Shown: positions 37,226-56,422 of the stretch, piece after piece
Position numbering within the stretch: the first letter of the stretch is position 1
How the letters are laid out: each line of letters starts with the position of its first letter
Assembly (NCBI RefSeq): GCF_011682175.1
Contig: NZ_WHJG01000006.1
Span: forward strand, 186,001-250,000
DNA: 64,000 nucleotides
Source: Massilia frigida
Lineage (GTDB): Bacteria > Pseudomonadota > Gammaproteobacteria > Burkholderiales > Burkholderiaceae_D
Reading direction: 5' to 3'
Notes under the pieces: generated by a model
Database searches by the model: none
What the model saw: the letters and a program-made list of their open reading frames with translations, nothing else
What the model was told of the DNA's origin: nothing
Made by a program: the position numbers and the translations under genes

Positions 37226-38698
37226 CTAGTTGGCCCGCTCAAGGCGCCAGCGTTGCGGCGCCAGTCCATTGGCAGTCCACTGCTGGATCACGGCGCCGTC
37301 GAGCAGGCTGCCATCGCGGTTGTCGAGCATCAGCCCACTGTTGCGGTTGCGCACGCCGACATGCTGGGTCGTGCCCGGCACCAATTGCCACTGCTGGTTG
37401 TAGGTCGCCGCGTAAGGATAGGTCTTGAGCGCCACTCCGGGCGCGGTGCTGTGGCCCGCCACGTCGACCACATTGCCGTTGTAGTTCGAGCTGAGCTTGA
37501 ACCATGCGCCGTCGACCGGGTCGAGCGACCACAACTGGTCGGAATTGTTGAGGTTGGTGAATTGCCAGATGGCGGCGCCGTTGGCTGCGGCGGCGCGGTC
37601 AACGCTCATGACCTTGCCGCTGGCCTCGTTGCGCACGCGGTACCAGATCGTGCCGCTTCCTTCACCCGATGGCCGCGTCACGGGCGTGCCGGCAGCGACC
37701 GGCGCGCCGATCACCGGAACGTCGCCATTCCAGCTCACCTTCTGGATGCGCGTGGTGCGCGCGTCGCCGCAGCCCTGGCCGTTGGCCGGATTGGCATGGT
37801 AGACGATCCAGTCTTCGGTGCCGTCGGGCGACTTGGTAAAGCCGTTGTGGCCGGGGCCGAAGGCGCCGTTGCCCTTTTGTAGGATCGGCGTGGCCGCCTT
37901 GCTCCAGTTGGACGGCATGGTCAGGTCCGCGCCCAGGTTGGCGGTCAGCAGGCCGAGCTTGTAATCGTCGGTCCAGCAGCCGCTGGCCGAGATACTCATG
38001 TGCACCTTGTTGCCGTGCACGATAAATGCAGGCGCCTCGTTGACCGCCGCGCCGGATTTTTCCCAGGCGAGAGTCGGGGTGGAAATGATCGCGCCCTTGC
38101 CGATGAGCGTGGTCGGACTGCTCATGCGTGCGATCTTGATGCGCTGCGGTTGTCCGCCGGAGATGTCCGACCAGGCCATGTAGAGCTGGCCGTTGATGGT
38201 GGCCACGGTCTGGTCGATTGCCCAGCTATCCTCGCTGTCGGCCACCTTGACCGGTGCGCTCCAGGTGCCTGTGGTCGGATCGGCGCTGGGGTTGCGGATG
38301 GCAAACACGCGGTGCTGGTTGTCGGTGCCGGCTCCCGAAAAATAGATGTACCAGGCGCCGTTGATATGGTTGATCTCGGGCGCCCAGATTTCCTTGCTGG
38401 TGCAGTTGTTGCCGCTGCAGGCCGCTGTCTTGACGAACACCGTGACCGGCGTGCGCGCGCCGATGCCGGACAGCGAGGGCGACTTGCGCAATTCCAGCTT
38501 GTCCCAACCGGGCGCGGTGGACACGAAGTAGTAATTGCCATCGCTGTGGCGCATGACGTGGGGATCGGCCGAGGAGGTGGTAGCTGGTCCGACCGGATTG
38601 ATGAAGGTGGTCGAGGCGGCGCTGGCAAAGGCAGGCAGGAACAGGGCGGCGAGGCAGGCGGCGAGCCGGCGCGCCGGGATGACAGGGTGTTTCAACAT
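37226..38698 (-). CDS. Secreted GH43 family glycosidase with ricin-type lectin domain
   Basis: 490 aa with a signal peptide (LAACLAALFLPAFASA). Residues about 30-345 form a five-bladed propeller of the GH43 arabinosidase/xylosidase class: the general base aspartate in SSADPHVMRH, IWAPEINHINGAWYIYFSG, SWAIDQTV and a glutamate in NEAPAFIVHG. The C-terminal ~140 residues have the QxW repeats of a ricin-type beta-trefoil (SGKVMSVDRAAAANGAAI; YNQQWQLVPG; APQRWRLE). It probably trims arabinose- or xylose-containing plant polysaccharide outside the cell. The start has GGAGACTGCCA upstream. No other carbohydrate genes are adjacent. Confidence 0.88.
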   Translation of the reverse strand: MLKHPVIPARRLAACLAALFLPAFASAASTTFINPVGPATTSSADPHVMRHSDGNYYFVSTAPGWDKLELRKSPSLSGIGARTPVTVFVKTAACSGNNCTSKEIWAPEINHINGAWYIYFSGAGTDNQHRVFAIRNPSADPTTGTWSAPVKVADSEDSWAIDQTVATINGQLYMAWSDISGGQPQRIKIARMSSPTTLIGKGAIISTPTLAWEKSGAAVNEAPAFIVHGNKVHMSISASGCWTDDYKLGLLTANLGADLTMPSNWSKAATPILQKGNGAFGPGHNGFTKSPDGTEDWIVYHANPANGQGCGDARTTRIQKVSWNGDVPVIGAPVAAGTPVTRPSGEGSGTIWYRVRNEASGKVMSVDRAAAANGAAIWQFTNLNNSDQLWSLDPVDGAWFKLSSNYNGNVVDVAGHSTAPGVALKTYPYAATYNQQWQLVPGTTQHVGVRNRNSGLMLDNRDGSLLDGAVIQQWTANGLAPQRWRLERAN

Positions 38699-38987
38699 TG
38701 GCAGTCTCCATGGGTGGACCGCCGCCCTGGGGGGCGGACGGTACGGCCATGGTGGGCCACGGCTCGCCAGCGGAGTATGGTCGTCGGTTCAAGGACCGTC
38801 CAATCCCAAAGTGGACATCGCGCACGACAAAAAAGTGATCGCAGGTTGTGCTTGTTACCTCGGTTCTCACCGTGCGCTGCTGACAGGCGCGCGGGGCACC
38901 TTTATTGATGCGATGCGGACGATAAGCCGACCGGGCCGGGCCCGTCCCGTCAGGCTAGAAAGCGAAGCGCCGGCTCGACAGCTGCTA
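38699..38987. other. Intergenic region upstream of the GH43 gene, containing repeat copy 1
   Basis: No convincing gene. The first ~100 bp presumably hold the GH43 promoter (minus strand), though no clear boxes were found. The 40-bp direct repeat copy 1 lies at 38836-38875. An open frame runs through on the plus strand into the protease remnant but has no start context. Confidence 0.5.
38836..38875 (+). repeat. Imperfect 40-bp direct repeat, copy 1 (left of the RiPP cluster)
   Basis: The 40 bases match 50873-50912 at 35 positions in the same orientation; longest shared block TTGTGCTTGTTAC. The similarity ends sharply on both sides. In frame, the two copies would read VIAGCACYLGSHRA and LIADCACYVGSHHA, so a coding origin is possible, but no gene was recognised around either copy. 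Together they bracket the whole RiPP cluster. Confidence 0.7.
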
Positions 38988-39400
38988 ATGGGACATCCAG
39001 AAGCCGTCGCCGTCATCAACGGGGATATTGAGATGGCGATAACAAGCGAATCAAGGAAAATCATGCAGGCCCACCGTATCGGTCGGCTGGAGTCGGGGAG
39101 CGGCACTCCGATCGGTTCTGCCGCCGTGGTCGGCGGGGCCGGATCCTTACCGCGGGGCACGTCATCCTCGCAACGACCGCCGACTCGATCAAGTTCGTCC
39201 CCGGCTACTCTGCCTCGGAACTCGCCAGCACAAATCAAGATCGCTCAAAAGGGAACTCAGGCGGTCCTCGCCGGGCGGTTCGGACGCAAGCGTCCTATAT
39301 CGTCGAGCTTACTTCGGGTGAGCATAAAACTCAGTACGGCCCGTTCGGGAGCGACTACGACGTCATGAACGCGGGGGGGGCTAGGCGATGGTGGATCTGA
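38988..39400 (+). pseudogene. Decayed trypsin-like serine protease gene fragment
   Basis: From ATG 38988 the frame reads MGHPEAVAVINGDIEMAI and reaches RIGRLESGSGTPIG, typical of the start of a secreted S1-type protease domain. Around 39142 the similarity jumps frame to ILTAGHVILATTADSIKFVPGY (from 39143; the His-motif block), shown here to residue 22 of that block only in part. It then passes directly to KGNSGGP (the catalytic serine motif) and ends at TGA 39398-39400. The stretch between the His and Ser motifs that should hold the catalytic Asp is missing. One frameshift and one internal deletion make it non-functional. Confidence 0.55.
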
Positions 39401-39691
39401 TTGCCTTGGCAAGACTCGACATCGACACCACCATTGATGCCAACCCGCCCGACAACGCTTCATCGCACATTTGCTGCAATCTTACCCATTTCTGCGTAAA
39501 ACAGCACAATCATGCCAAAAGCATAAAAATAATAAAAAACAAATATTTAATGTGGGCATTTTTGCTTAAGATGCATTCCGTCGAGCATTAGTCCATCTGC
39601 AAGCACTTTTCCGGTTGAGGTGTGAGCGATGGCTGCGACTTGATGACGTTAGTTGGAATTTTCCTTTACTTAAACTTATAAGAGATAAGCC
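39401..39691 (+). promoter_or_regulatory. AT-rich upstream region of the RiPP precursor gene
   Basis: This gap contains the most AT-rich stretch noticed in the window (about 39500-39560, a run of A/T around AATAATAAAAAACAAATA), standing out against the GC-rich surroundings. A promoter for the precursor is expected here. TTGGAA (39654-39659) with TATAAG (39678-39683) is a possible pair, but its start of transcription would leave almost no leader before the ATG at 39692, so I do not commit to it. No gene was seen. Confidence 0.45.
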
Positions 39692-39871
39692 ATGAACAAA
39701 GCCATGAACGAAACGATGATTAACTCGATTGAAGCCGAAGAGATCAACGCCGCAGAACTCGACCTTTTCGCTGAAGAAATCGAAGTCCGTGGCAACGCTG
39801 TTGCTGTTGCCAGCACTGCCAGCAGCCTCAGCACCGCAGCTTCCATCAGCACCTCGGCCTGCCTCGCCTAA
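39692..39871 (+). CDS. RiPP precursor peptide, thiopeptide/azole-peptide type (59 aa)
   Basis: Very short gene directly ahead of a YcaO/LanB cluster. The 59-aa product has a leader (residues 1 to about 40) rich in Glu/Asp/Ala with the pattern EEINAAELDLFAEEIEVRG, typical of thiopeptide-class leaders. It has a Ser/Thr-rich tail STASSLSTAASISTSACLA (41-59) holding 7 Ser, 3 Thr and one Cys (C57). These are the residues that YcaO enzymes cyclise and LanB enzymes dehydrate. Cleavage near VAVA-S is inferred. AAGAGATAAG precedes ATG 39692; an internal ATG at 39704 is a weaker alternative. The gene is followed by a hairpin and 490 bp without genes, consistent with a separately abundant precursor mRNA. 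Confidence 0.85.
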   Translation: MNKAMNETMINSIEAEEINAAELDLFAEEIEVRGNAVAVASTASSLSTAASISTSACLA

Positions 39872-40361
39872 GTGTTAAAAGCGGCGTACCTGCGATCAGG
39901 TACGTCGCCAGCATCGAACGCCTGCGCGGGCGGTATGAGCGCAGTCGGGTCTCGCGTCACGACAAGCTTCGGGCTCACGCAAATTCCCGCTCGATGGGGA
40001 GATCATTGCGCGCCAACTCGCGCGGCCTGATCTGGTGCACACCAATAAAGCAGCCGAACAAGCTTTGCGTCATTGGCCGTGCGCGCATCATCCGCGTGCC
40101 ACCGGCAGTGAGGCGGGCCGGACGCATTCGCGCGGCTGACAAACGTGAACGGAACTTGCCGAAAGCAGTCGATTTCCTCGGGGGGCGTCATTGCCGCTTT
40201 CCGTAAGAACTTGACCATCGCGTCCTGCCAGGGGATGAACGACGACGTATTTGCAGCATGTCGCCGTACCGAATTCCTTGGAAATTTCTGATCGCTATTT
40301 CTGTAAGCGCCCCTCTGGGGCATATCACCCTGGGTTACAACATGTTCGAATTGACATTACG
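39872..40361 (+). other. 490-bp gap between the precursor gene and the biosynthetic genes
   Basis: Contains the hairpin at 39883-39909 and nothing else recognisable. Short open frames exist on both strands (for example minus 40323-40003) but have no family resemblance or ribosome site. It could hold a second promoter for the enzyme genes or a leader RNA; a small third gene cannot be excluded. Confidence 0.45.
39883..39909 (+). promoter_or_regulatory. Hairpin after the precursor gene (possible attenuator or mRNA end)
   Basis: CGTACCT (39885-39891) and AGGTACG (39898-39904) form a perfect 7-bp stem with a 6-base loop, extendable by GG/CC pairs past a bulge. It starts 12 bases after the precursor stop. 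No T-run follows. Such a hairpin between precursor and enzyme genes often limits read-through or stabilises the precursor message, but that role is inferred. Confidence 0.5.
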
Positions 40362-40964
40362 ATGCCTTTCCAAGACTTAGATCCGCCCGAATCCCGTTTG
40401 CATTGCGACCTCGTTGCTTATAGTCCCGTTTGCGCAGCGCTGGCCGATGATCTGATCTCATGCTGGCCAAATTCACGCACGCCTGCGGCGCTGGAACTGG
40501 ACGGTGCTGTATTGCCCCAGTGGCTGCATTCGCATGCCGTTCAAGGTTGGGTGCTGCTGCTCACCGCCGAAGCGGCCGATGCGCCGGTCCTGGACTTCAA
40601 CCGATGGCTCGTGGCTCGCCATGCGCGTACGCTGATTGTTCTCGCTCGGCCCGACAGTCTTTGGGCACTTCGGCGCGACGACGCCCGTGTCTCGCCATGT
40701 GTGGCCTGTCTGTGCAGTCAGGGCGAATTCCTGCCGCGACATGCCGCCACTCCCTCGCCCAGCACGCGCGATAGCGCGCAGTCGTTGTCGCACTGGATCG
40801 GCGAACAGATGGCGGAGAATCAGGGCGGGGAACATTGCGCCTTGCATCCTGTGCTCGCAGGGCCGGATGCACGTACCTGCCAGATCCTGCAAGACCCACT
40901 TTGCCCCGGCTGCTCGATGCATGCAGTGCGGCCCAATCACGTCTACTTTACAGCCGACTCATGA
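40362..40964 (+). CDS. Small E1-like zinc-binding protein fragment of the RiPP cluster
   Basis: 200 aa. It resembles only the C-terminal part of the ThiF/E1-like proteins that partner YcaO enzymes: a FNRWLVARHARTLIVLARP strand-helix segment, then two CxxC pairs (C113/C116 in SPCVACLC and C181/C184 in PLCPGC) that would bind structural zinc. The N-terminal ~60 residues are not recognisable as a leader-binding domain. It may be a degenerate partner that complements the separate E1-like protein two genes on. Start MPFQDLDPPES is chosen as the ATG that leaves the E1-like part intact; its ribosome site is weak. It overlaps the YcaO start by ATGA, implying coupled translation. Confidence 0.6.
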   Translation: MPFQDLDPPESRLHCDLVAYSPVCAALADDLISCWPNSRTPAALELDGAVLPQWLHSHAVQGWVLLLTAEAADAPVLDFNRWLVARHARTLIVLARPDSLWALRRDDARVSPCVACLCSQGEFLPRHAATPSPSTRDSAQSLSHWIGEQMAENQGGEHCALHPVLAGPDARTCQILQDPLCPGCSMHAVRPNHVYFTADS

Positions 40965-42304
40965 GAAAAAACGGTTATCTTGACGCAGGGGAGTTACTCG
41001 AGCGCACCGCGCCACTGGTCGACGCGGAAACCGGGCTGATCGCCCCACCAGCGGAGATTCCGGTCGAGTGCGGCGAGGCCGACATCGTCGTCTATTCGTC
41101 GACAGTCTCCTGGCTACCGCACGCTCAAGCGCATATCACGCTCGCCCTGGACAAGTCCCAAAGCCTGGCTGGCTCAGGATCCTCGACGCAACGCAAGTGG
41201 GCCAAGGCCAAGGCGATTTGCGAGGCCTTGGAACGTTACTGCAATTGTTCGTTTGACGAGCGGCGCGTCGTCACCGCGACGCGCGACGAACTGGGCGGCG
41301 AGGCCCTCGATCTGTGCCGCTTTGCGCACGCGTCGCGCAGCGAATCCAACGATGGCAGCGCACTGCCCCGCAACGACGTGCCTATACGCTGGTTACAAGG
41401 CTATTCGCTTACCCATCGTCGCCCCGCGTATGTGCCCTTTGGCGCGGTCTATGTCAGCTCCGCTTACCAGTGGCAGGGTGAGGCGTTTATCCAACCGATC
41501 AGTTCCGGCAGTGCGATCGCGGCCAGTTACGAACGTGCTTGCGCCACCGCGATCATGGAGCTGATCGAGCGCGACACGCTCACGCTCACGTGGCTGCATC
41601 AACTACCGCTGTCACACATAGACATTGATGAAAGCGCCGGTCCCGAGCTACGTGAACGTCTGGCGCGCGCGCAAGCAAGCGGCATCGAGACCTATTTCTT
41701 TGACGCCACGACCGACTTGGGCATGCCCAGCGCCTACTGCCTGCAATGGCAGCCGGAGGGGGAAGTGGCGATGATGGCGATGGCCGCTACGCGCTTTGAC
41801 ATCGAAGACGCGCTCGTGCGCGTCATTGACGAGGCAGCGTCCTCGCGTGCGGCAATCGCGCCACTGTCACGCCGACCCCGCCTCTATAACCCACTTGATT
41901 TCCGGACCTTCACGCGTCTGACCGATGGCGCGGTGTACTACGCGGACCCGGCGCATCGCGCGGCCTTCGATTTCCTGCTGCAATCGCCGCACAGGATCGA
42001 CTTGGCAACGCTCAAGCGGCGCCAGGCAAGCGCGCCAGAAGATGATCATGAGATGCTGGATCGCCTGGTGTCGCGTTTTGCCGAACTCGACTACGAACTA
42101 TGCGTCGTCGATCAAACCGTCGGGCCGGTCGCCGACTGTGGGCTGTTCGCCGTGCGCGTCGTCGCACCGGATCTGCTCCCGCTCACCGTTAACTACAACC
42201 TCAAATTCGGCGCCGCGCCACGTCTCTATGAAGCCCCGAAACGAATGGGCCACCGCGCCAAGTCCTACGCCGAATTCAACCGCTGGCCACAACCCTTTGC
42301 ATAA
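40961..42304 (+). CDS. YcaO-type cyclodehydratase (azoline-forming, D protein)
   Basis: 447-aa YcaO protein. Using ATP it activates backbone amides so that Cys, Ser or Thr side chains cyclise to azolines in the precursor. The ATP-binding signature is intact: SSTQRKWAKAKAICEALERY at residues 74-93 and, later, YERACATAIMELIERDT with its glutamates. The C terminus ends RWPQPFA, a proline-containing tail like that of peptide-modifying YcaO proteins. The start ATG overlaps the preceding gene by 4 bases. The E1-like partner needed to bind the leader is supplied by the next gene and by the fused protein at the end of the cluster. Confidence 0.93.
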   Translation: MRKNGYLDAGELLERTAPLVDAETGLIAPPAEIPVECGEADIVVYSSTVSWLPHAQAHITLALDKSQSLAGSGSSTQRKWAKAKAICEALERYCNCSFDERRVVTATRDELGGEALDLCRFAHASRSESNDGSALPRNDVPIRWLQGYSLTHRRPAYVPFGAVYVSSAYQWQGEAFIQPISSGSAIAASYERACATAIMELIERDTLTLTWLHQLPLSHIDIDESAGPELRERLARAQASGIETYFFDATTDLGMPSAYCLQWQPEGEVAMMAMAATRFDIEDALVRVIDEAASSRAAIAPLSRRPRLYNPLDFRTFTRLTDGAVYYADPAHRAAFDFLLQSPHRIDLATLKRRQASAPEDDHEMLDRLVSRFAELDYELCVVDQTVGPVADCGLFAVRVVAPDLLPLTVNYNLKFGAAPRLYEAPKRMGHRAKSYAEFNRWPQPFA

Positions 42305-42308
42305 GCAC

Positions 42309-43166
42309 ATGTTTACAAATACATTCGAGCTTGCAGCATCAAACTGGCATACACTTTATTTGCAGCGCGTCGATGCCCGCCACGCAGACGACGCCCATGT
42401 CACCGATCTTGTGCAGCGACGCTTGAGCAAAGCGCGTGTGAGCTTGATCGTCGACAGCGGCATGGCTGTTCCGGTGCTGCACGCGCTCAAGCACCTGCAA
42501 CTTGGCCATCTCTGCGTCGCACCGCTAGACCCAGGGGCAATGTCGGTACTGGCACATGAACTGCCAGCGGCGACGGCTACGCAGTCGGTCATCGCCAGAC
42601 CCGTGTTCGATAACAGGACATTTACATTGGGCTTGTATGACATTGATCTCGTTGCGGTCGCGCTGACACGCCCACATCCGCAACAACTTGCCTCCATCAA
42701 CGCCATTGCAGTGCGACACGGAATTCCCGTCTGCCCGGTACTGCTCGACGGTGCGCGAGTTGAGCTCGGCCCAACCGTCATGCCGGGTGCCAGCGCCTGC
42801 CTGGCCTGTGCCGAGGTGCGCAGCGCCGCCAATGCAGCGCACATCGAAGCGTGGGAAGCCGAGCGTCAATTCCATGACCGCAATCCGGGCTTTGAGGCGC
42901 CCGGCCGATTCGATAGTCTTGCGCGCGTGGCGGCATCCATGCTGGCGCTTGAAATCAGTGCCTTGATCGGCGGAGCGCGCGCGCCTGCCGCCGTCAATCG
43001 CCTCGTCAGCTACGACCTGACGACGTCTTCAAAGTCTCACCCATTCATCCCTTATTACGAATGGTGTCAGGTGTGTCGTCCACCCATGCGGCCAGGCACG
43101 CGCAGTACGCATTTCGAGGACTTCTTGCTCAGACGCAAAGTAAAATTAACAAGGAGCACTTCATGA
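42309..43166 (+). CDS. E1-like (Ocin-ThiF) partner protein of the YcaO cyclodehydratase
   Basis: 285 aa. A Rossmann-like core (SLIVDSGMAVPVLHALKHL, then YDIDLVAVALTRP) is followed by the tetra-cysteine zinc site of this family: C164/C167 in SACLAC and C253/C256 in WCQVC. Such proteins lack adenylating activity but stimulate the YcaO enzyme and often carry the leader-binding domain; here the N terminus is too short to show a clear winged-helix domain. It starts 4 bases after the YcaO stop and ends in a 4-base overlap (ATGA) with the SagB gene, whose AAGGAG site lies inside this coding region. Confidence 0.85.
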   Translation: MFTNTFELAASNWHTLYLQRVDARHADDAHVTDLVQRRLSKARVSLIVDSGMAVPVLHALKHLQLGHLCVAPLDPGAMSVLAHELPAATATQSVIARPVFDNRTFTLGLYDIDLVAVALTRPHPQQLASINAIAVRHGIPVCPVLLDGARVELGPTVMPGASACLACAEVRSAANAAHIEAWEAERQFHDRNPGFEAPGRFDSLARVAASMLALEISALIGGARAPAAVNRLVSYDLTTSSKSHPFIPYYEWCQVCRPPMRPGTRSTHFEDFLLRRKVKLTRSTS

Positions 43167-44029
43167 GCCGCCTCGACGCGCGCGAAGGCATAGGTAGTAA
43201 CCTCAGCCTGCTACTACACCACGCTACGCGCAACGTTCCCGGCGTGCGTGAGTTCCAGGGCGCTCCCTCATGCGCCGAGCCACTCGGCTGGATCAAGGGC
43301 GCCTTTCACCCGTCCAAGGCGGGTGCATGCATCGACTTGCTCTCCCATCTCGGTGCATCGGCCAGTTCCGACGAGCCGCCCATTGCCGCCGCGCTGGCGC
43401 AGCGCCAAAGTACCCGCTCCTACTCGGAGCGGCCGTTGACTCTGAACGACGTGGCGCGCTTCTTGCACTGGGCCTATCCAGCGCAGGTGCGCACGCCTGG
43501 CGATGCGCCATCCGCACAACCGCATCGCACGCTGCAAGCCTGGAATGGCCACGTTACCATGGTGCGCCAAGTCATGCTGGCACTGCGGGTGGATGGCCTA
43601 GCGCCTGGGGCCTATCTCGTGGATGAGCAAAATTTGACCTTGGTGCAACTCAATGCCGATGCCACGCGTATTCCGGATCTGCTGGAAACGGCCTGCTTCC
43701 AGGCCGAATTCAGAAGCGCGGCTTCCTTGTTCCTGATGGTCGGTTCGCTCGCGGATGCCATCGAACGTTACGGCGACCGTGGCTACCGTTACATGTTGCT
43801 CGAAGACGGGGTGCAATTGCAGCGCAATGGCATCGCCTGCGCGGCCCTGGGCTTCGCAGGTAGCATCACCGCCAGCTTCTCTCAGGATAGCTGGGATGGC
43901 TGGCTGGGGCTCGATGGCTTCCACGCCAGCGTGCTCAATGGCTATGCTTTGGGACATAGCGAGCGCCCCAAGGCGCTCGCAGCTGCCATGGCACAGGCGA
44001 GTCAAAAGGCAGTCCATGCAAGTGAATGA
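43163..44029 (+). CDS. SagB-type FMN-dependent azoline dehydrogenase
   Basis: 288-aa nitroreductase-fold protein. SagB/ThcOx enzymes use FMN to oxidise azolines to aromatic oxazoles or thiazoles. The hallmark N-terminal FMN motif RQSTRSYSERPLTLNDVARF begins at residue 81, and the middle has the GAYLVDEQNLTLV segment of this subgroup. A good AAGGAG ribosome site lies 6 bases before ATG 43163. It is one of two SagB-like domains in the cluster; the other is fused to an E1-like domain at 48873-50711. It overlaps the next gene by 14 bases. Confidence 0.88.
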   Translation: MSRLDAREGIGSNLSLLLHHATRNVPGVREFQGAPSCAEPLGWIKGAFHPSKAGACIDLLSHLGASASSDEPPIAAALAQRQSTRSYSERPLTLNDVARFLHWAYPAQVRTPGDAPSAQPHRTLQAWNGHVTMVRQVMLALRVDGLAPGAYLVDEQNLTLVQLNADATRIPDLLETACFQAEFRSAASLFLMVGSLADAIERYGDRGYRYMLLEDGVQLQRNGIACAALGFAGSITASFSQDSWDGWLGLDGFHASVLNGYALGHSERPKALAAAMAQASQKAVHASE

Positions 44030-45164
44030 GGAAAGCGCATCGGCGCAGCATCGTCCGCGCGCGCTACCGGGCTTCCTGGCCAGCCCGTACGGCGATCAGT
44101 CCCGCTATCTGGTCAAGGACGCCAATCTCACGCACTACATGCTCACCAACGCGCTGGGCGTGCGCGTGCTCGAGTTGGCCAACGGCGAGCGCACCCTGGC
44201 CGAGATTGCCACATCGCTCAGCGGCGGCAGCCCGGTCCGGCTCAAGCCCCAACGCCTGACCGCGTTCCTCGATGAAGGTGCGCGACTGTGTCTGATCGAT
44301 CCCGCCAGTTGGCCAACGCCTGCCACCGGCAAGGCCCAGGGCGAGCCCCAGTCCTTTATCCAGATCGATGCCGCGCTCGCCTGGCTGGACACTTACCGGG
44401 TCTGGTGGCTCAACCCGGGCACAAAACTGGCGGCACTGGCGCTCACTGCGGCTGGAATCGTGCAATTGTTTCTTTACCCGCGTGACGGCGGCCTGCTCGC
44501 TCCGCTGCAGATGATCACTTTCACACCGGCCGATGCGATGCTGCTCTTGTTGCCGCTCATTGCCATCGTCGAAATTGCGTTGCACGAACTTGCCCATGCC
44601 CTTGCATGCCATCTCTATGGCGCACGAACGCGTGGCTTTGCCTTCAAGTTGATGTGGGGCATCGTACCGTCCATCATTACCGATACGCTCGATGCACACA
44701 GCATTGCAAACAAATACCAGCGCATGTTCGTGTCCTTTGCCGGACCGATGGTCAACCTCGTGTCATTCGGGATCGTCATGACGCTTTATCATGCGCTTGA
44801 CCCAACGAGCGTCGCTGCGCGGATGCTGCTGGCTTACTCCGGATTCCAATTGGCGATCATCGCTGTGACGCTGAACCCGTTTCTGCTCAGCATGGACGGG
44901 TATTGGATCGCCGCCGATTATCTCGAACAGCCCAATCTGCGCAAGCTCGCCATGGCACACCTTCGGGACGGCTTGAGCCGATTGCCTGGCCTGGGGCGCT
45001 GGCGCAAACGCGCCAGCGCCACGCATAGCGCACGGGCAGCTGTCGGCTATGCGCTATACGCTGCGGTGGCCTTATGCTGGACCGGACTCGTCGTCGCATG
45101 CTTCGGCTATGAATTAGTGCGCCTCCTGTGGAGCGCGCTCCAACACCTGCCTTGGGGATCTTGA
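44016..45164 (+). CDS. PqqD-like/M50 site-2-protease family membrane protein of the RiPP cluster
   Basis: 382 aa. Residues about 35-97 resemble a PqqD-like winged helix (NLTHYMLTNALGVRVLEL then GERTLAEIATSL), the fold that binds RiPP leader peptides. The rest is a membrane zinc protease with HELAH (190-194) and the second metal motif NPFLLSMDGYW (287-297), spread over about six hydrophobic helices. It may remove the leader peptide at the membrane or take part in export. No ABC transporter is present in the cluster, so this is the only gene that could link maturation with release. It overlaps sagB-like by 14 bases and precedes the LanB gene by 5. Confidence 0.85.
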   Translation: MQVNEESASAQHRPRALPGFLASPYGDQSRYLVKDANLTHYMLTNALGVRVLELANGERTLAEIATSLSGGSPVRLKPQRLTAFLDEGARLCLIDPASWPTPATGKAQGEPQSFIQIDAALAWLDTYRVWWLNPGTKLAALALTAAGIVQLFLYPRDGGLLAPLQMITFTPADAMLLLLPLIAIVEIALHELAHALACHLYGARTRGFAFKLMWGIVPSIITDTLDAHSIANKYQRMFVSFAGPMVNLVSFGIVMTLYHALDPTSVAARMLLAYSGFQLAIIAVTLNPFLLSMDGYWIAADYLEQPNLRKLAMAHLRDGLSRLPGLGRWRKRASATHSARAAVGYALYAAVALCWTGLVVACFGYELVRLLWSALQHLPWGS

Positions 45165-45169
45165 GACGC

Positions 45170-47851
45170 ATGAAACAAGAACAATTTGACACGAGCGGCG
45201 CGGGTTCAGGCGGCGCTGTGCGCCTTCCCGCCTGGCAACTCGACGGCCCGGCACTGTTGAGGCTAGCCGCATTCCCGGCCAGCCGCCTGAACACGCTGAC
45301 CATGCCGCAGAGTGTGGCGTGGCAGCGGCGTCTTGCCGGACAGGAAAACTTGCTTGACGTTGAGCGCAGCTATGTCTGCGAGCGTATCCTCTTCCAGGCG
45401 GCCGGCACGTTTGAAGGTAGCAACAAGTCGGCGCTGGTCGCCATCAAGCGCAAGCTCCACAACAGGCTTTCTCTCCAGGCCGGGGATTGGGTCGTGCTGG
45501 CCTTGCTGCCAGGCTTGCGCGAGCGCCGCCTGGTGCGGCGCTACACCCACCGCCTTGAGCGCCTTGAACGCTGGAAAAAAGAAGCGAGGCACGTTTTTGC
45601 CGCGGAACTGACGCGTCAACGCTGCCGCCTGCAAGATCTGGTCACCAAGCCCGATTTCTTGCTTGGTCTGCAACTACACAATACGAGCCTCGCCGCCCAC
45701 GCGCGTAAATTGGCATGTGTGGAGCCTGATAACTGGCGCAAGGCCGAGCGCAATACTGAAGCCACGCTGATGCGTTACGTCGCGCGCGCCACCGCCAAGA
45801 CCAGCCCATTCGGACGCTGGGGCCTGGTGGCCCCGCTGGCCACCGGGACCGCCAAACCGGAACACTGCCCGACGACCGGATTGGTGCTTGATGCGCGGGC
45901 CGCGTGCATTGAAGTACGCTCCCGCCTTAATTTGCAACTGTGCGCGCGCATCGCAGCGAGTTTGCAAGCTCGCTACGCGATCACTGATCAACTGCCGCTG
46001 ACCCCCAACCCAACGCGTTTTCGCGAAGGCCAGGCTATCGGCTTTTTCAGTGCGGCAACGGCGGGCGTGAATATCGCCTATTCCAGACTACGCAGCGGCC
46101 CGCTCTCGGCGCCGGTCGAGCAACTGTTGACCTTGCTGGAGAACGCCACCAGGGGGCTGAGCAAGGCGGACTGGATTGACCAGGCACGGCGCCACCCGGA
46201 ATTAGCTTCCCTGGGAGGCGACAAGGTAAGCTCCCTCATCAGCCAGGTGCACCGCTCTGGCCTGGTGCAAAGCGCCTCACTGTTGCCCAGCGACGCACTG
46301 GACGGCTTGTCGACCTTCGCCCGCCGCGCGCACGCGATGCTTGGCACGCAAATACAGCCAGCATGCGACGCGCTGCATGAACTTGAAGCGCTGGGGCAGG
46401 AGTACGCCACGCGGGACGTTGCGGGACGTGACGCGGCACGCACCCGCATCGTGCAGTTGTGCGCGGCACTGGGGGTGGACGATATCGACGGCATCGCGCC
46501 CGTGATCGAGGACAGTATTGTGCATGGCGTTGAGGCAGACCTGGGTTCGCGCCTCAGGCTCGCGTTGGAACATCAACTTGGCCCCTTGCTGAGCCTTTTC
46601 GCCCGACGCGATAGCAACGGCCTGCACCATCGCATGCTGGTCGACATCTTCGTCGCCAGCTACGGGGTAGGCGGACGCTGCGGCAATCCTGCGCATTTTG
46701 CCGCCCAAGCGCTGCGCCTGTGCGAACGGCACAGGACCGACGATACGCACATCTTTCCGCGCTTTGCCCAGGCCAGGGCCGCGTACGCCAGCTTTATGCA
46801 CACGTTCGCGGCGCTTGCCGAATCAAAGCACAGTGAAGTGTCGCTCTGCGAGCAAGACTTGCAACAGCTCGCGCAAACCTGTATGGCCGCCGATCATGCG
46901 ACCGGGGTGCCGCGCCGCCTTGGCGTGCTGGTGCAAGTCGCTGCGGCGAGTGCGGAGGCGATGGAATGTGGTGAGTTCGATCTGATTATCAATCAAACCT
47001 TGCCTGGTTGGGGACGCTTTTATACACGCTATGCTCAGTTGATCGACAATCCTGCCTGGGTCGATGCCCTGCGCGCGGTGCTGCAACGACTGCAATCGGT
47101 AAGCGGCAACGAAATACTGGAGCTGCAAACGACGCTGCAGCACAACGCGCATGTGCATCCGGCGCTGACGCCGCGGGCTTTGTCCATGCCGGGTGAATCT
47201 TCCGCGCGCGCCGACCTGCTCGCATTGGACGGCTTGACGGTGGAACACGATGCGGCAAGCGATACGCTACGCTTTGCTTACGATGGGCAAGCGGTACTGC
47301 CGCTGTACATGGGCTGCCTGCACACGATGTCGCTGCCACCGGTGCAACGTGTCCTGTCCGATGCCGTGGCCCCCTATGCTTATCAAGCGGAGGCGAGTAA
47401 CCTGGTCGACTTCATCGAGCGTCAAGCCAGGCCGTGCACCTCGACGGTACGTATCTACCCGCGCCTGCGTTACGGGCGCGTGATCCTGCAGCGCAGGTCC
47501 TGGGCGGTCGATGTCACGGCACTGCCGGAGCATACTGCGGACGATTACACCTTGTTCAGCGCCTATCAGCACTGGCAAAGCGTACACGGATTGCCTGACC
47601 GCGTTTATGTTCGGGTGATCCTGCGCAAACCTGGCGAGCCGGGCCGCATCCGTGATCACAAGCCCGTTTACCTCGAGTTCGCCAACCAGCTGCTGCTGCG
47701 CAGCTTTATTGCCGGTCTCGATAGCGCGAGTGTACAAACCTTGATCTTCGAGGAAGCGCTGCCCGACCCCGAGCTTTCCGTCGTCGATCTTGGCCTGGGT
47801 GGACCGCACGTCGTCGAGTTGCAGCTAGAGCTGGAGGAAGTGCTGCCATGA
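45170..47851 (+). CDS. LanB-type dehydratase, glutamylation protein (split form)
   Basis: 893 aa, corresponding to the N-terminal glutamylation domain of class I lantibiotic dehydratases, which use glutamyl-tRNA to glutamylate Ser and Thr before elimination. The family hallmark lies at residues 202-217 (RYVARATAKTSPFGRW; usual form R-x-x-x-R-x-TPFG). The elimination domain is not part of this protein; it is the next gene, as in thiopeptide and goadsporin clusters. The stop overlaps the next start by 4 bases. Its presence predicts Dha/Dhb residues in the Ser/Thr-rich precursor tail. Confidence 0.9.
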   Translation: MKQEQFDTSGAGSGGAVRLPAWQLDGPALLRLAAFPASRLNTLTMPQSVAWQRRLAGQENLLDVERSYVCERILFQAAGTFEGSNKSALVAIKRKLHNRLSLQAGDWVVLALLPGLRERRLVRRYTHRLERLERWKKEARHVFAAELTRQRCRLQDLVTKPDFLLGLQLHNTSLAAHARKLACVEPDNWRKAERNTEATLMRYVARATAKTSPFGRWGLVAPLATGTAKPEHCPTTGLVLDARAACIEVRSRLNLQLCARIAASLQARYAITDQLPLTPNPTRFREGQAIGFFSAATAGVNIAYSRLRSGPLSAPVEQLLTLLENATRGLSKADWIDQARRHPELASLGGDKVSSLISQVHRSGLVQSASLLPSDALDGLSTFARRAHAMLGTQIQPACDALHELEALGQEYATRDVAGRDAARTRIVQLCAALGVDDIDGIAPVIEDSIVHGVEADLGSRLRLALEHQLGPLLSLFARRDSNGLHHRMLVDIFVASYGVGGRCGNPAHFAAQALRLCERHRTDDTHIFPRFAQARAAYASFMHTFAALAESKHSEVSLCEQDLQQLAQTCMAADHATGVPRRLGVLVQVAAASAEAMECGEFDLIINQTLPGWGRFYTRYAQLIDNPAWVDALRAVLQRLQSVSGNEILELQTTLQHNAHVHPALTPRALSMPGESSARADLLALDGLTVEHDAASDTLRFAYDGQAVLPLYMGCLHTMSLPPVQRVLSDAVAPYAYQAEASNLVDFIERQARPCTSTVRIYPRLRYGRVILQRRSWAVDVTALPEHTADDYTLFSAYQHWQSVHGLPDRVYVRVILRKPGEPGRIRDHKPVYLEFANQLLLRSFIAGLDSASVQTLIFEEALPDPELSVVDLGLGGPHVVELQLELEEVLP

Positions 47852-48876
47852 CGCTGATGCAGGCAGATGCGCTGCAAGCTCCTTCCACGTCCGGTCACGG
47901 TGATCCCGGGAACGCGATAGTGCGCCCGCCACAGCGACGCAACGCGGACGATTGGGTCTACGCCCAACTGTTCCTGTCTCCGGAACTGTCATCGAGAGAC
48001 CTCGTGCCCGCTGCGGACGAGATTCTGTTTGACATTTTGGCGCCGCTGTTTGCCGCGTGGAAGGCCCAGGGGCACACCTGGTTCTTCATCCGTTATCAGG
48101 AACACGGATACCACCTGCGGCTACGAGTTCATGCGGAGTCGGCCATGCACCGTGCGCGGATCAAGGTGCGCTTGAGTAGCGCGTTGGCCGCGCCGCTCGC
48201 GCGTGGTGCGCAGTTGCGCTTTGCCAAGTACGAACCGGAGATCGACAAGTATTGTGGGCCGCATGGCAATAGCCTCGCCGAGCAACATTTTTGCGCCAGC
48301 AGCGTCGTGTCATTGCGCATTTTGGCTGACGACAGCACCCCCCTGACCGAACGCGCTTTGCGCTTGCTGGCAAGCACGCTGGAAACGACAGGCTTGGACG
48401 CGGCGCAAAGCATTAGCTGGTGTCGCGCCTATTACGACTACTGGTGGCGAGCATTTGGCCTACCGCCCGCCTACGAACAGAAGGACGAGGCGATGTTCCA
48501 ACATTCGCGCGGCGCGATTGCCAGTAAGTTCAGTGCGGCTCAACAAGCGGGCACCGATGGTTCGCCAAGAAACATCGCATGGCTGCACGACTGGACTCGC
48601 GCTCTCAAGCAAGATATTCACGCTCTGAAAGACCTCGAAGGCGGCCGCGTCCTGGTTGATCCAATCCGCCAACGCGACAGTGCGCACACATGCTACCCCT
48701 ATCCAGTGACCGATCTGAGCATGCTGCCTAATTTCTGGCACATGCTCTGTAACCGGCTCGGTGTTTCGGTACGCCAGGAAATGCAGCTGGTTTATTGCCT
48801 GATGCGCCACCTGACCGTGCAGCACGGTATCGAGCCTACCCCAATGACCATGAGTTTAATTTCCGACAAGACATGA
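47848..48876 (+). CDS. SpaB_C-type protein (glutamate elimination or pyridine-forming enzyme)
   Basis: 342 aa of the SpaB_C/thiopeptide-type family. Visible family blocks: FFIRYQEHGYHLRLRV (79-94, with R91-x-R93), YEPEIDKYCG (128-137) and FWHMLCNRLG (296-305, H298). The RxR pair and the histidine correspond, as I recall, to residues needed for glutamate elimination in NisB, favouring an elimination role; a lysine stands where NisB-like proteins usually have arginine in the Y-x-x-E-x-x-RYG motif. The same fold also makes the central pyridine of thiopeptides, so either role is possible. It is the only such gene in the cluster. It overlaps both neighbours by 4 bases. Confidence 0.82.
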   Translation: MTLMQADALQAPSTSGHGDPGNAIVRPPQRRNADDWVYAQLFLSPELSSRDLVPAADEILFDILAPLFAAWKAQGHTWFFIRYQEHGYHLRLRVHAESAMHRARIKVRLSSALAAPLARGAQLRFAKYEPEIDKYCGPHGNSLAEQHFCASSVVSLRILADDSTPLTERALRLLASTLETTGLDAAQSISWCRAYYDYWWRAFGLPPAYEQKDEAMFQHSRGAIASKFSAAQQAGTDGSPRNIAWLHDWTRALKQDIHALKDLEGGRVLVDPIRQRDSAHTCYPYPVTDLSMLPNFWHMLCNRLGVSVRQEMQLVYCLMRHLTVQHGIEPTPMTMSLISDKT

Positions 48877-50711
48877 CTACAATTATCGATTTCCAGGCGG
48901 CGTTGGTGAGCCTATCGGCCGAGCCGTCCGATCCGCAAATGCGGCTTCCGATGCATCCCAAACTGGTAGCAGGTGTTCAGCCAGTCTGGCACAGCCGCGA
49001 ATGCCTGATCATGGTGGGCGGTCCAACAACGATCACGCTGCGTGGGAAAGCGGTTTCGGTCGTCCTTCCTTCGCTCCTGCCGCTGTTGGACGGCACACGC
49101 ACGCTGGCGCAGATTGGCGAGCAGATGCGCGGTATCGGCGCACGTGCCGTTCAGCAGGCTTTGATGCTGCTCTTCATGCGTGGCTTGCTGGTGGGAGAAC
49201 CCGTGCCATGCACCGACCCACTGCAGCTCGAACTCGAACGCGACGCGCGTTGGCGGCGTCTGCTCAATACCTACGAGCGGTATCTGGACGAGACCCGCGT
49301 TTGCCAGTCCGCCGGCGCAGTCCTCGCCGCGATGCGGCGTGGCAAGCTTCTCCTGATCAGCGATAGCGGGTACGCCATTACCGTGCTCAAGGCACTAAAG
49401 GAGCTCGGGCTCGGTTGCGCAACCCTGCTCACGCCGCACGCCGACTTGGTGGAACAGGCAACGGCCTTGTCCGATGCCAGTTGGGACCTGAAGGTACAGC
49501 AGCAGCCTCTCGATGCGCTGCTTGCGGCGAACGATGAACACGATGCAGTGTGCGCCTTCATCAGTGCAGAGCCGGCCGTCGAACGCGCGCTAGCGCTCGG
49601 CGATGCGCTGCATGGCCAGCGCCTGCTCTACGCAGTGCTTGGCGAGCGCGAGCTACGCATCGGCCCTTGCGTCGATGTGCCATCCTCGGCTTGCCTGCAT
49701 TGCGCCAAGGCGAGCGGCACGTTCGAGCGAGGCAACGACAGGCATTACGGGGCGTTGGAACTGGAGTTAGGTGCCGAACGCGTGGCCCATAAGCTCTTGC
49801 AGCTCTTCACGCACGTCGTCGCAATCGACAGCATTGAGCGCAGCGAAACACTGGACAGCGATACCTTGGTGTTTACCGCCCAGCCCGTATTTCGCCAATT
49901 CGGCTGCTCTCACTGCGCGCCCTTGAGTGCATCGTGGCCTGAGCGTCCCGGTCTGGATTTAGGGGGGGCACGGTTGGCCCCGCTACCCTGGTTTTACCAC
50001 CGCAGTAGCCAACATGCGGCGTATGCGATGGCGCCCAAGGGGCACCAGGTGCATTACGCGAGCAAGAACAAGCAAGCCAGTGCCGGTGGCTATAAGATCT
50101 ACCGCTCAAGGCCGAGCACGGCGCTAGCCGAGCTGGATAAGCAATCCCCCCGCTTCGCACAGCTGTCGCAGCTGCTGGGCTCGGCCGTGGGGCGCCGCGT
50201 CTGGCAAGCTGGGCCAAACTTGAGCTTCGCGCTGCGCTTGACGCCCAGCGGCGGCAACATGTCCTCGCAGAATGTGTACGTACTATCCTATGAAGAACAC
50301 ACGCGCGGTTGCTATTACTTCAACCCACGCGGATATTGGCAGCGCTTGGCCGATCACGCGCCGGCATTGACGCAGCTCGGTCTGCTTTGTGATGGTGACT
50401 TGCAGCCGCGCTTTGCGTTGCTGCTGACCTGTTCGCATGCGCGGCTCGAGTCCAAGTACAATAATGCCGCCTACCGTTATGCCTTTTATGACGCTGGGAC
50501 GCTTGTCGCAAGCTTGCAAGCCTTGGCACCGCAACATGAATTTATTTGCCATACCAGCGCCCATTTCGACGACGATGCGGTTGCGGCATTGTTTGGCGGT
50601 TTGCAAACCAACGAATTCGCCACTGCCGTCGTTGTTCTGACGGACGCCTCTCTGACTGCAATACCGAATCAAGTCAATGCAGACACGAACATGTTCGCCG
50701 CCAACGAATAG
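48873..50711 (+). CDS. Fused leader-binding E1-like and SagB-like protein
   Basis: 612 aa with three parts. Residues about 28-110 look like a PqqD-type winged helix (RRE) that would bind the leader. Residues about 125-390 are an E1/ThiF-like domain with zinc cysteines C274/C277 (ACLHC) and C345/C348 (GCSHC). Residues about 400-600 are a SagB/nitroreductase-like domain (GGYKIYRSRPSTALAEL; RLTPSGGNMSSQNVYVLS; RLESKYNNAAYRYAFYDAG). It probably recruits the precursor to the YcaO enzyme and may help oxidise azolines. It is the last gene of the cluster and overlaps the preceding gene by ATGA. No terminator is seen after it. Confidence 0.82.
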   Translation: MTTIIDFQAALVSLSAEPSDPQMRLPMHPKLVAGVQPVWHSRECLIMVGGPTTITLRGKAVSVVLPSLLPLLDGTRTLAQIGEQMRGIGARAVQQALMLLFMRGLLVGEPVPCTDPLQLELERDARWRRLLNTYERYLDETRVCQSAGAVLAAMRRGKLLLISDSGYAITVLKALKELGLGCATLLTPHADLVEQATALSDASWDLKVQQQPLDALLAANDEHDAVCAFISAEPAVERALALGDALHGQRLLYAVLGERELRIGPCVDVPSSACLHCAKASGTFERGNDRHYGALELELGAERVAHKLLQLFTHVVAIDSIERSETLDSDTLVFTAQPVFRQFGCSHCAPLSASWPERPGLDLGGARLAPLPWFYHRSSQHAAYAMAPKGHQVHYASKNKQASAGGYKIYRSRPSTALAELDKQSPRFAQLSQLLGSAVGRRVWQAGPNLSFALRLTPSGGNMSSQNVYVLSYEEHTRGCYYFNPRGYWQRLADHAPALTQLGLLCDGDLQPRFALLLTCSHARLESKYNNAAYRYAFYDAGTLVASLQALAPQHEFICHTSAHFDDDAVAALFGGLQTNEFATAVVVLTDASLTAIPNQVNADTNMFAANE

Positions 50712-50993
50712 GATTCATCTGGCCTTCCGGCTGCACTGGACTTGGCGCGGCCTGCTTAGCGGCAGATCAACGCGGTTGGACTGCGCCAGTCGCACGGCCC
50801 CCGACGGCAGCCGCGCCGACGCCAGTTTCGTGGCCGGGGTCTTGCTCGACAAGTGCGCGCGCCACCAGCCCTTGATCGCAGATTGTGCTTGTTACGTCGG
50901 CTCGCACCATGCCTGCACCCATGGATGCGTGAGCAGTCCGGGGGCGGCATGGCGAAGCAGGGCGATGAACTGGTCGCGAAAGACAATGAGCAT
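50712..50993. other. Intergenic region at the right end of the RiPP cluster, with repeat copy 2
   Basis: 282 bp between the last RiPP gene (plus) and the convergent pseudouridine synthase gene (minus). It contains the second copy of the 40-bp repeat and no recognisable gene or T-tailed hairpin. Short open frames here have no ribosome site. Confidence 0.5.
50873..50912 (+). repeat. Imperfect 40-bp direct repeat, copy 2 (right of the RiPP cluster)
   Basis: Matches 38836-38875 at 35 of 40 positions in the same orientation; the five differences are single substitutions with no gaps. It lies 161 bp beyond the end of the RiPP cluster. It could be an old target duplication, an attachment-site remnant or a dispersed genomic repeat. 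Confidence 0.7.
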
Positions 50994-51740
50994 TCAGAAC
51001 TGCTCGTCAGGCCGCAGATAGCGCCATTGCCCGACCGGCAGGTCGCCCAGCTTGACCTTGCCGATACGCACGCGTTTCAGGCCAAGCACTTTCAATCCCA
51101 CCATATCGCACATGCGGCGGATCTGGCGCTTCTTGCCTTCTCTCAAGGTGAAGCTGAGCTGGTCGTCATTCTGCCAGCGCACCTTGGCCGCCAGCAGCGG
51201 CTTGCCGTCCATCCACAAGCCGAAGCACAGCTTCTTCAGGTCCGATTCCGGCAGCTTGCCTTCCTTGGTGTACTGCACGCGCACCAGGTATTCCTTTTCG
51301 ATGGCGGTATCCTGACCGATCAGGGTTTTCGCCACGCGCCCATCCTGCGTGAGGATCAGCAGCCCGACCGAATCGATGTCGAGCCGTCCGGCCGGCACCA
51401 GCGAGCGCAATTGGGTCGGGTGGAAGGTTTCCGGCGACGGGTCGTCGGCCCAGCGGTTCTCGGCCTTGATCAGCGCCACGGCCGGGGTGTAGCCATCTTC
51501 GGCCTGGCCGCTGACATAGCCCATCGGTTTGTTGATCAGCACGGTAACGCGCTTGGATTGCTCGGCCGCGGCCTGGCGCTCGACGGTGATTTTCTGGTGC
51601 GGCAGCACTTTGCTGCCCAGTTCGGAGATGACCTGGCCATCGACCCGCACCCAGCCGCGGGCGATCCATTCATCGGCTTCGCGGCGCGACGAGAGCCCCA
51701 GTTCGGACATGCGTTTGGAGAGGCGTACTAATTCAGTCAT
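50994..51740 (-). CDS. Pseudouridine synthase, RsuA/RluB/E/F family (likely RluF)
   Basis: 248 aa. An N-terminal S4 RNA-binding domain (RLSKRMSELGLSSRREADEWI) is followed by the synthase core with the catalytic aspartate in AGRLDIDSVGLLILT and the C-terminal REGKKRQIRRMCDMVGLKV block. The enzyme converts uridine to pseudouridine in 23S rRNA. The single S4 domain and the IGKVKLGDLPVGQWRYL ending look most like RluF, but subfamily choice by eye is uncertain. It is the third gene after map and glnD on the minus strand, 51 bp behind glnD. Confidence 0.85.
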   Translation of the reverse strand: MTELVRLSKRMSELGLSSRREADEWIARGWVRVDGQVISELGSKVLPHQKITVERQAAAEQSKRVTVLINKPMGYVSGQAEDGYTPAVALIKAENRWADDPSPETFHPTQLRSLVPAGRLDIDSVGLLILTQDGRVAKTLIGQDTAIEKEYLVRVQYTKEGKLPESDLKKLCFGLWMDGKPLLAAKVRWQNDDQLSFTLREGKKRQIRRMCDMVGLKVLGLKRVRIGKVKLGDLPVGQWRYLRPDEQF

Positions 51741-51791
51741 GGCTTGCTTTTAAGGTTACTTAAAGGGTTACTGGAAAGGGAAATCTGGATA

Positions 51792-54374: not shown

Positions 54375-54386
54375 GGCGGCTTGGCC

Positions 54387-55214
54387 TCAGGCCGTGACGG
54401 CGGCGCTGGCCGGGATGATGAAGGCCGGCGGCGGCGGCGAGCCGGCCGAGACGGTCAGCACTTCGTAGCCGGTGTCGGTGACGAGAATGGTGTGTTCCCA
54501 CTGGGCGGACGGCTTCTTGTCCTTGGTCTTGATGGTCCAGCCATCGCCCATTTCCTTGATCTCGCGGCGGCCGGCGTTGATCATCGGCTCGATGGTGAAG
54601 ATCATGCCCGCTTCCAGGCGCTCCAGCGTACCTGGACGGCCGTAGTGCAAGACCTGCGGCTCTTCGTGGAAGACCTTGCCGATGCCGTGGCCGCAAAATT
54701 CGCGCACCACGCTGTAGCCGTTCTTTTCGGCGTGCTGCTGGATAACGTGGCCGATGTCGCCCAGGTGCGCGCCCGGCTTGACCTGGGCAATGCCGAGCCA
54801 CATGCATTCGTAGGTGACTTCGGAGAGGCGCTTGCCCAGAATGGTTGGCTTGCCGACCAGGAACATGCGGCTGTTGTCGCCGTGGTAGCCATCCTTGATG
54901 ACAGTGATGTCGAGGTTGACCATGTCGCCATCCTTGAGCACCTTGTCGCCCGGGATGCCGTGGCAGATCACGTCGTTGACGGAGGTGCAGATGGCTTTCG
55001 GGTAGGGCGTGTAGCCCGGCGGGCAATAGTTGAGCGGGGCGGGGATGGTGCCCTGCACGTTGACCATGTATTCATGGCAAAGACGGTCCAGTTCGCCAGT
55101 GGTGACGCCGACCTTGACGAAGGGCGTGATGTAGTCGAGCACTTCGGAGCCGAGGCGGCCGGCGATGCGCATGCCTTCGATGTCGGCGGGAGTTTTGATC
55201 GAGATGTTGGACAT
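54387..55214 (-). CDS. map: Methionine aminopeptidase, type I
   Basis: 275 aa. Removes the initiator methionine from new proteins. The five metal ligands of the pita-bread fold are present: aspartates in NLDITVI and YHGDNSR, histidine in FCGHGIG, and glutamates in TIEPM and WEHTI. The C-terminal ~18 residues (SPPPPAFIIPASAAVTA) are a short Pro/Ala extension. Start MSNISIK is preferred over a TTG three codons earlier. It is divergent from rpsB, a common arrangement in proteobacteria. Confidence 0.95.
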   Translation of the reverse strand: MSNISIKTPADIEGMRIAGRLGSEVLDYITPFVKVGVTTGELDRLCHEYMVNVQGTIPAPLNYCPPGYTPYPKAICTSVNDVICHGIPGDKVLKDGDMVNLDITVIKDGYHGDNSRMFLVGKPTILGKRLSEVTYECMWLGIAQVKPGAHLGDIGHVIQQHAEKNGYSVVREFCGHGIGKVFHEEPQVLHYGRPGTLERLEAGMIFTIEPMINAGRREIKEMGDGWTIKTKDKKPSAQWEHTILVTDTGYEVLTVSAGSPPPPAFIIPASAAVTA

Positions 55215-56327: not shown

Positions 56328-56356
56328 TTGCTTCAGGCGCCAGGCGCCGCGGAAAT

Positions 56357-56389: not shown

Positions 56390-56422
56390 AAACAGAATAT
56401 GTCACAAATTTAGGAGAAACAC

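Follow-up and report, generated by a model that had tools for sequence, protein, structure and literature searches.

A Massilia gene cluster predicted to make a linear azole- and dehydroamino acid-containing peptide

Positions 39692-50711 of the DNA examined here, a stretch of 64,000 nucleotides from Massilia frigida (referred to as the window), hold nine intact, co-directional genes for a ribosomally synthesized and post-translationally modified peptide (RiPP), all placed on the forward strand by gene calling and family searches. We consider it likely that these genes form an accessory RiPP island whose linear product carries dehydroamino acids as well as azol(in)e rings, and that the cluster has undergone reduction within its Gram-negative subclade. 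An earlier sequence-only reading of this DNA had described an azole and dehydration enzyme set with a split LanB in a Gram-negative bacterium, and the present analysis confirms that enzyme set.

Organization of the cluster

The genes follow one another in the order precursor (39692-39871; 59 residues), B200 (40362-40964; a very divergent E1-like partner protein with an uncertain start codon), YcaO cyclodehydratase of the SagD type (40961-42304; a discrete 447-residue protein), second E1-like protein of the TOMM precursor leader peptide-binding family (42309-43166), SagB-type azoline dehydrogenase (43163-44029), membrane M50 (site-2 type) protease (44016-45164; the presumed leader peptidase), LanB-N (45170-47851; the glutamyl-tRNA-dependent glutamylation domain of a split dehydratase), LanB-C (47848-48876; its glutamate elimination domain) and a fused E1-like/SagB dehydrogenase (48873-50711). 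Overlaps of 4, 4, 14, 4 and 4 bases occur at five of the eight junctions. Two more have short gaps (4 and 5 bases), and the remaining one, between the precursor and the enzyme genes, spans 490 bases. The sequence-only reading had counted ten elements in one direction, mostly overlapping by 4-14 bases. All the elements it named are present on the forward strand, but they amount to nine genes, and three of the junctions are gaps.

YcaO scores 259 bits with TIGR03604 (cut-off 219) and 207 bits with PF02624, LanB-N 126 bits with PF04738 (cut-off 28), and LanB-C 134 bits with PF14028 (cut-off 24) and 107 bits with TIGR03891 (cut-off 48); the location of PF04738 and PF14028 on separate genes defines the LanB as split. 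The second E1-like protein matches TIGR03882 at 52 bits (cut-off 36.9). Both dehydrogenases pass the PF00881 cut-off of 23.5 (SagB 38.5 bits, E1/SagB 26.8 bits) and fall below that of TIGR03605 (54.5 and 56 bits, cut-off 78.4), and the fused protein also scores 16.7 bits with TIGR03882, below its cut-off. The M50 protein carries a HELAH motif, with sub-threshold scores for PF02163 (21.9 bits, cut-off 27.2) and for NF041824 daptide_HExxH (86 bits, cut-off 300); its N-terminus is weakly PqqD-like (E 0.061), and PqqD/RRE domains were seen below threshold only. B200 gave no family match, and no BLAST match at E 1e-3 in nine loci. Proteins at the same position in two related loci reach 19.7 (L029) and 30.0 bits (L030) with TIGR03882, again below the cut-off, and share with B200 a C-terminal DPxCPxC motif recognized by eye.

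The precursor bears the leader motif LDLFAEEI at 39758-39781, followed by a presumed core of about NAVAVASTASSLSTAASISTSACLA (39794-39868). This presumed 25-residue core contains seven Ser, three Thr and a single Cys (Cys57), so that Ser, Thr and Cys make up 44% of it; its calculated monoisotopic mass before any modification is 2253.116 Da. A profile of ten clade precursors, the Massilia one included, recovers the Massilia precursor at E 3.4e-16 across its own genome, where the two other matches are at E 1.25 and 2.62, and an alignment can be made between the peptide and the precursors that lie 5' of YcaO in four relatives. These comparisons show that the frame is more than a chance occurrence. 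Lack of precursor conservation among relatives was an outcome that the sequence-only reading had named as refuting it; the precursors are conserved, and the reading withstands this test.

Directly 3' of the precursor, on the forward strand, lies a hairpin at 39881-39908 with 12 base pairs, one of them G-U, and without a T-run. The fold of 39860-39930 has an energy of -30.6 kcal/mol (z -2.66), equalled by one of 200 shuffles. A scan for promoters and terminators found none, including no terminator-like site at the hairpin, which could possibly be an attenuator or a processing site.

Predicted biosynthesis

Family membership, from which all catalytic steps are drawn, suggests the following route. 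The LDLFAEEI leader would be bound by the E1-like and PqqD-like proteins, whereupon YcaO and its E1-like partners would cyclize Cys57 and some of the core Ser and Thr residues to azolines, and the two SagB domains would oxidize these to azoles. LanB-N would glutamylate further Ser and Thr residues from glutamyl-tRNA, and LanB-C would eliminate glutamate to give dehydroalanine (Dha) and dehydrobutyrine. The membrane M50 protease would then cut off the leader and, without a [4+2] enzyme, the product would remain linear.

Thiopeptides are defined as a class by a six-membered ring from [4+2] cycloaddition (PMC9247985). Judged by that definition, the Massilia cluster has the YcaO/dehydrogenase azole genes and the split LanB, and a [4+2] pyridine synthase was not found in the cluster or the genome; for this reason we do not class it as a thiopeptide, and the earlier assignment to that class is not supported. 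LanB-C residues E131, K134 and H298 align with NisB E823, R826 and H961, which we take to be the residues serving elimination. Profile A4, built from LanB-C and five relatives, scores MibB, MadB and NisB at 60, 56 and 50 bits versus 30 and 22 bits for TsrE/TsrL and TbtD, and a Foldseek search with the LanB-C model (predicted local distance difference test, pLDDT, 82) places MadB, MibB and NisB at the top. With fair confidence, we predict that LanB-C is an elimination enzyme.

Nearest relatives and the origin of the Massilia cluster

The four nearest relatives, by YcaO identity, are found in Roseateles terrae (56%), a gammaproteobacterial metagenome-assembled genome (MAG; 52%), Stenotrophomonas (49%) and Aestuariibacter (49%). 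The contig of the MAG stops after LanB-N, leaving three complete loci for comparison. The four relatives carry precursors of types 1 and 2 (Aestuariibacter with two of type 2), and Massilia has type 1 alone. The type-1 core of Massilia ends in STSACLA, where the cores of the relatives continue with a further Cys/Ser-bearing stretch. With NF033482 ('thiocillin family RiPP', curated cut-off 25), the Massilia precursor scores 20.1 bits, below the cut-off, the Stenotrophomonas type-1 precursor 20.7 bits and the Roseateles type-2 precursor 30.4 bits.

All three complete loci encode two additional proteins of the SpaB_C fold: X1, whose gene lies between the two LanB genes, and X2, which follows E1/SagB. 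Downstream of X2 are a Yip1-type membrane protein, a MacA-like protein and a MacB-like ATPase and permease, assigned by Pfam in Stenotrophomonas and by BLAST in the other two. A profile of X1 finds in these loci its own X1 seeds and also the non-seed X2 proteins (E 4e-33, 4e-25 and 2e-12), including the Roseateles X2 that PF14028 alone misses. X1 and X2 keep RYxxGxH and NRxG motifs and lack YxPExxKYGG, whereas LanB-C retains the elimination motif YxPExxKY. Among solved structures, TbtD comes nearest to the X1 profile (E 0.0036), and Foldseek with the X1 model (pLDDT 69) also ranks TbtD first (E 1.8e-5), closely followed by MadB (2.4e-5). X1 and X2 may tentatively be regarded as candidate cyclases, and Gram-negative bacteria may have in them a source of new chemistry based on the SpaB_C fold, of the [4+2] type or another.

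The Massilia island holds no remnant of X1, X2, Yip1 or MacAB apart from the match of X1 and X2 to LanB-C, and none of them was found in the window, to which the search for MacAB was confined. In a tree of YcaO, M50 and LanB-N, which left out the near copies L032, L039, L049 and L072, Massilia groups with Roseateles (ultrafast bootstrap, UFBoot, 89) beside the other three relatives. Because of this grouping, the presence of X1, X2 and the exporter is likely ancestral, and their loss likely occurred in the Massilia line, which is the simpler account. The Massilia cluster looks like a reduced, and probably linearized, descendant of larger Gram-negative clusters, and the Massilia/Roseateles pair would represent a natural experiment in which a probably macrocyclic pathway is turning linear. 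A more specific scenario is speculative and, in our judgement, rather unlikely. It envisages that Roseateles, Stenotrophomonas and Aestuariibacter make a two-component family of thiopeptide-like macrocycles, each precursor type being closed by its own divergent [4+2]-type enzyme (X1 or X2) and exported by MacAB. The Massilia cluster would then be a natural knock-down, deprived of both ring-closing enzymes, of one precursor and of the last third of the core, and kept as a linear azole-dehydro peptide.

Alternative explanations

Three alternatives to a linear product from a functional, reduced cluster were considered. If the product were a true thiopeptide, its pyridine would come either from a highly divergent [4+2] enzyme encoded at another genomic site or from LanB-C performing both elimination and cycloaddition. 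The VIA comparison of the LanB-C model puts TsrL/PbtD slightly first and the model as close to PbtD, TbtD and TsrL as to elimination domains; the NF045556 score of LanB-C, 28.4 bits (cut-off 325), is no lower than the 25.4 bits of Roseateles X1; and pyridine-synthase-like paralogues occur in the nearest relatives, although for the X1 model VIA gives a tie between NisB (16.4) and TbtD (15.5). Against this stand the single-Cys core, the elimination motif that LanB-C keeps and X1 and X2 lack, and the content of the host genome, where the one Lant_dehydr_C protein is LanB-C and the X1 profile matches LanB-C alone (21.9 bits), with no pyridine-synthase-like paralogue found. We therefore regard a true thiopeptide as highly improbable. 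A different cyclization, in which the single Cys stays unmodified and adds to a Dha to form a lanthionine-like ring, would suit a split LanB and a core with one Cys amid many Ser and Thr, but no LanC-type cyclase was found by Pfam among the nine proteins, and YcaO with two SagB domains suggests that the Cys becomes a thiazole; we give this ring very little credence.

The cluster might also be a decaying remnant of a larger Gram-negative cluster that yields no product at all. Compared with the three complete loci, X1, X2 and the exporter are gone, only one of the two precursor types remains, and that one has a truncated core; moreover, the Massilia branch is the longest in its clade, twice that of Roseateles. 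The cluster nevertheless comprises about 11 kb of full-length frames with five translational overlaps. Of the residues that do not vary among the other 20 sequences (counted without L047 from Stappia and the near copies omitted from the tree), Massilia retains 35 of 36 in YcaO, 7 of 8 in M50 and all 21 in LanB-N. Since the invariant residues are kept and the frames are full length, a dead remnant is disfavored and seems improbable to us.

Comparison with known systems

Goadsporin and the spongiicolazolicins combine YcaO/dehydrogenase azoles with dehydroamino acids made by a split LanB (PMC4603692, PMC10676384), and goadsporin, which has dose-dependent activity, is made with a fused cyclodehydratase (PMC4603692). 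The Massilia cluster resembles goadsporin in this azole and split-LanB logic, in the linear form predicted for its product and in that no [4+2] enzyme was found. It differs in its discrete YcaO, two separate E1-like proteins, E1/SagB fusion and M50 protease. No acetyltransferase family occurs among the nine Massilia proteins; the goadsporin cluster has an acetyltransferase and an Ffh-type immunity gene. The earlier label 'goadsporin-type' is accordingly apt for the azole and split-LanB logic and inexact for the discrete YcaO, the missing acetyltransferase and the extra E1-like and M50 proteins. On sequence grounds, we suggest that the cluster is a variant of the azole-plus-split-LanB kind represented by goadsporin, and new as a variant.

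Discrete cyclodehydratases are found in the thiopeptides berninamycin and TP-1161 (PMC4603692). These systems have the discrete YcaO and split LanB in common with Massilia, and differ in the pyridine synthase that was not found in the Massilia genome. Small frames reading SCTTxSVSTSSSSSSS, which we take to be berninamycin-like, occur near related YcaO genes in two Streptomyces loci (L064, 8477-8752; L066, 8469-8696; weak matches, E 0.04-0.09). The coryneazolisins, so far uncharacterized, use YcaO and lanthipeptide-type dehydratases without a [4+2] enzyme (PMC4603692), as does the Massilia cluster, but by description, rather than by sequence, they have two YcaO proteins and different precursors. 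Dehydrazoles such as carnazolamide place azoles and dehydroalanines in one peptide with LanM-like DUF4135 dehydration and a nitrile-hydratase-like leader (PMC10676384), neither of which Pfam detects among the nine Massilia proteins.

Closer in enzyme set and LDLFAEEL-type leader are two uncharacterized clusters, on Anoxybacillus plasmid pDSM15939_1 and Paracoccus aminophilus plasmid pAMI4, whose annotations include 'thiocillin family RiPP' and 'thiopeptide-type bacteriocin biosynthesis protein'. They differ from the Massilia cluster in YcaO sequence (37% and 34% identical), gene order, adjoining ATP-binding cassette (ABC) transporter genes and cores. By description only, the Pseudomonas Os17 cluster (PMC7726476) and the Massilia antibiotica 'thiopeptide' cluster with OsmC/YcaO and NTF2 genes (PMC7988111) look different from the one studied here. 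A search of the open-access literature, with most subscription papers and all preprints outside its scope, found no description of the Massilia cluster or its relatives, in agreement with the earlier statement that product and organization appeared undescribed.

The wider family with LDLFAEEL-type leaders

Relatives were collected by one contig scan that used four aligned YcaO proteins and two peptide patterns, which yielded 166 candidate stretches, 56 of them confirmed, and which misses members. Core enzymes were called present at profile scores of at least 30 bits, with profiles seeded from Massilia, Anoxybacillus and Paracoccus; the B200 columns of the tally were unused, as B200 was grouped with proteins better matching the second E1-like protein. 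YcaO, LanB-N, LanB-C and M50 occur together in 22 of the 56 YcaO loci: 14 proteobacterial, three from Bacillota, four from Actinomycetota and one from a Dehalococcoidia MAG. The proteobacterial loci are from Stenotrophomonas, Roseateles, Aestuariibacter, Serratia (two), Pseudomonas viridiflava, Rosenbergiella, Stappia, Paracoccus onubensis (two), Roseivivax (two), a betaproteobacterial MAG and a gammaproteobacterial MAG. The rarity in Gram-negative bacteria implied by the sequence-only reading is contradicted by these counts.

A precursor profile finds candidates at E <= 1e-3, with LDLFAEEL leaders or variants, in 18 of the 22 core loci. Its seeds come from four of these, and 14 of the other 18 were found at that threshold; none was found in L038, L047, L049 (at a contig edge) or L061 (E 0.22). 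Five of the 34 other loci also match (L028, L035, L050, L076 and L080), among them the Paenibacillus loci L035, L050 and L076, which have M50 and no LanB within the retrieved stretch; the leader thus also occurs outside LanB clusters. Searches of plasmid records gave ten matches for LanB-N, 78 for YcaO (30 of them listed) and one for E1/SagB, and led to the Anoxybacillus amylolyticus and Paracoccus aminophilus clusters. Having YcaO, LanB-N, LanB-C, M50 and the leader motif, the Massilia cluster belongs to this unnamed group, which makes split-LanB azole RiPPs with one leader motif a broad family spanning Bacillota, Actinomycetota and alpha-, beta- and gammaproteobacteria. No characterized product of the family was found.

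Additional observations were made in individual loci. Bacillus atrophaeus and Bacillus sp. N13C7 have five different tandem precursors (L031, 14507-15465; L032, 14508-15456). Beyond the Paracoccus aminophilus cluster lie ABC transporter genes and another YcaO, the latter accompanied by TfuA (L025, 15166-20001), so that a thioamide might be added there. Duganella, Massilia and a Sphingomonadales genome have a second family of YcaO genes near a large E1/SagB-like gene, with no LanB found, and near small frames that have Gly/Thr/Cys-rich repeats at their ends, for example AGTAGTFGTAGGCIGTVGSFGSANC (L074, 6677-6919; L077, 350-628; L052, 6155-6433; weak profile matches).

Host genome and borders of the island

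The host genome comprises 7.79 Mb in 255 contigs. The rpoB protein encoded in it shares 99.5% identity with its Massilia rubra counterpart and 94.8% with the one from Duganella sp. 1411, and a 7-kb rpoB region has 95.6% DNA identity with M. rubra. From this comparison the host is a Massilia-like betaproteobacterium; the sequence-only reading had likewise placed it among the betaproteobacteria.

The entire cluster with short edges lies in a segment of 12,149 bases (38845-50993, without assigned strand) that has no counterpart in M. mucilaginosa, where the homologues of 37226-38844 (90%) and 50994-57000 (93%) are only 8 bases apart. The right flank is also present in M. rubra and Duganella sp. 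1411, both of which lack the segment save for matches of about 50 bases or less. An imperfect direct repeat on the forward strand has one copy straddling the left edge (38836-38880) and another 77 bases inside the right edge (50873-50916), identical at 39 of 45 columns; its core pattern occurs twice within the window versus none expected in shuffles. A search for LanB-C in 392 genomes drawn from its host's family, order and phylum gave matches in 13 including its own, the other 12 being weak (best 48.7 bits versus 792.8 for itself) and in frames of 325-1159 residues, and LanB-N matched its own genome alone among 399 and again among 398 genomes in partly overlapping draws. The sampled genomes therefore hold no close orthologue. 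Gain in the Massilia host and loss in M. mucilaginosa are both possible, and gain is favored because the cluster is absent from these genomes.

Other features of the region and genome were recorded. The left edge of the island (38845-39390) has a protease-like TAGHVI...GNSGG reading, which was rejected as it lacks Pfam support. A sequence at about 39508-39639, just 5' of the precursor, recurs with 76% identity on another contig of the genome (G000:C220:354-488) and is perhaps a shared regulatory or mobile sequence. Two further YcaO genes are present in the same genome (L001, G000:C219; L002, G000:C66); at E 1e-15 neither matched any of the six loci compared, which included those of M. rubra, M. 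mucilaginosa and Duganella. Upstream of the island, on the reverse strand at 23451-37054, are two large Tc-type toxin-family genes, one with a TcA TcB-binding domain and the other with SpvB/TcdB and RHS, followed by a GH43-ricin-lectin gene at 37226-38698. On the opposite side, a stretch of approximately 40 bases at about 55363-55413 is an interspersed repeat with many copies in the M. rubra and M. mucilaginosa genomes.

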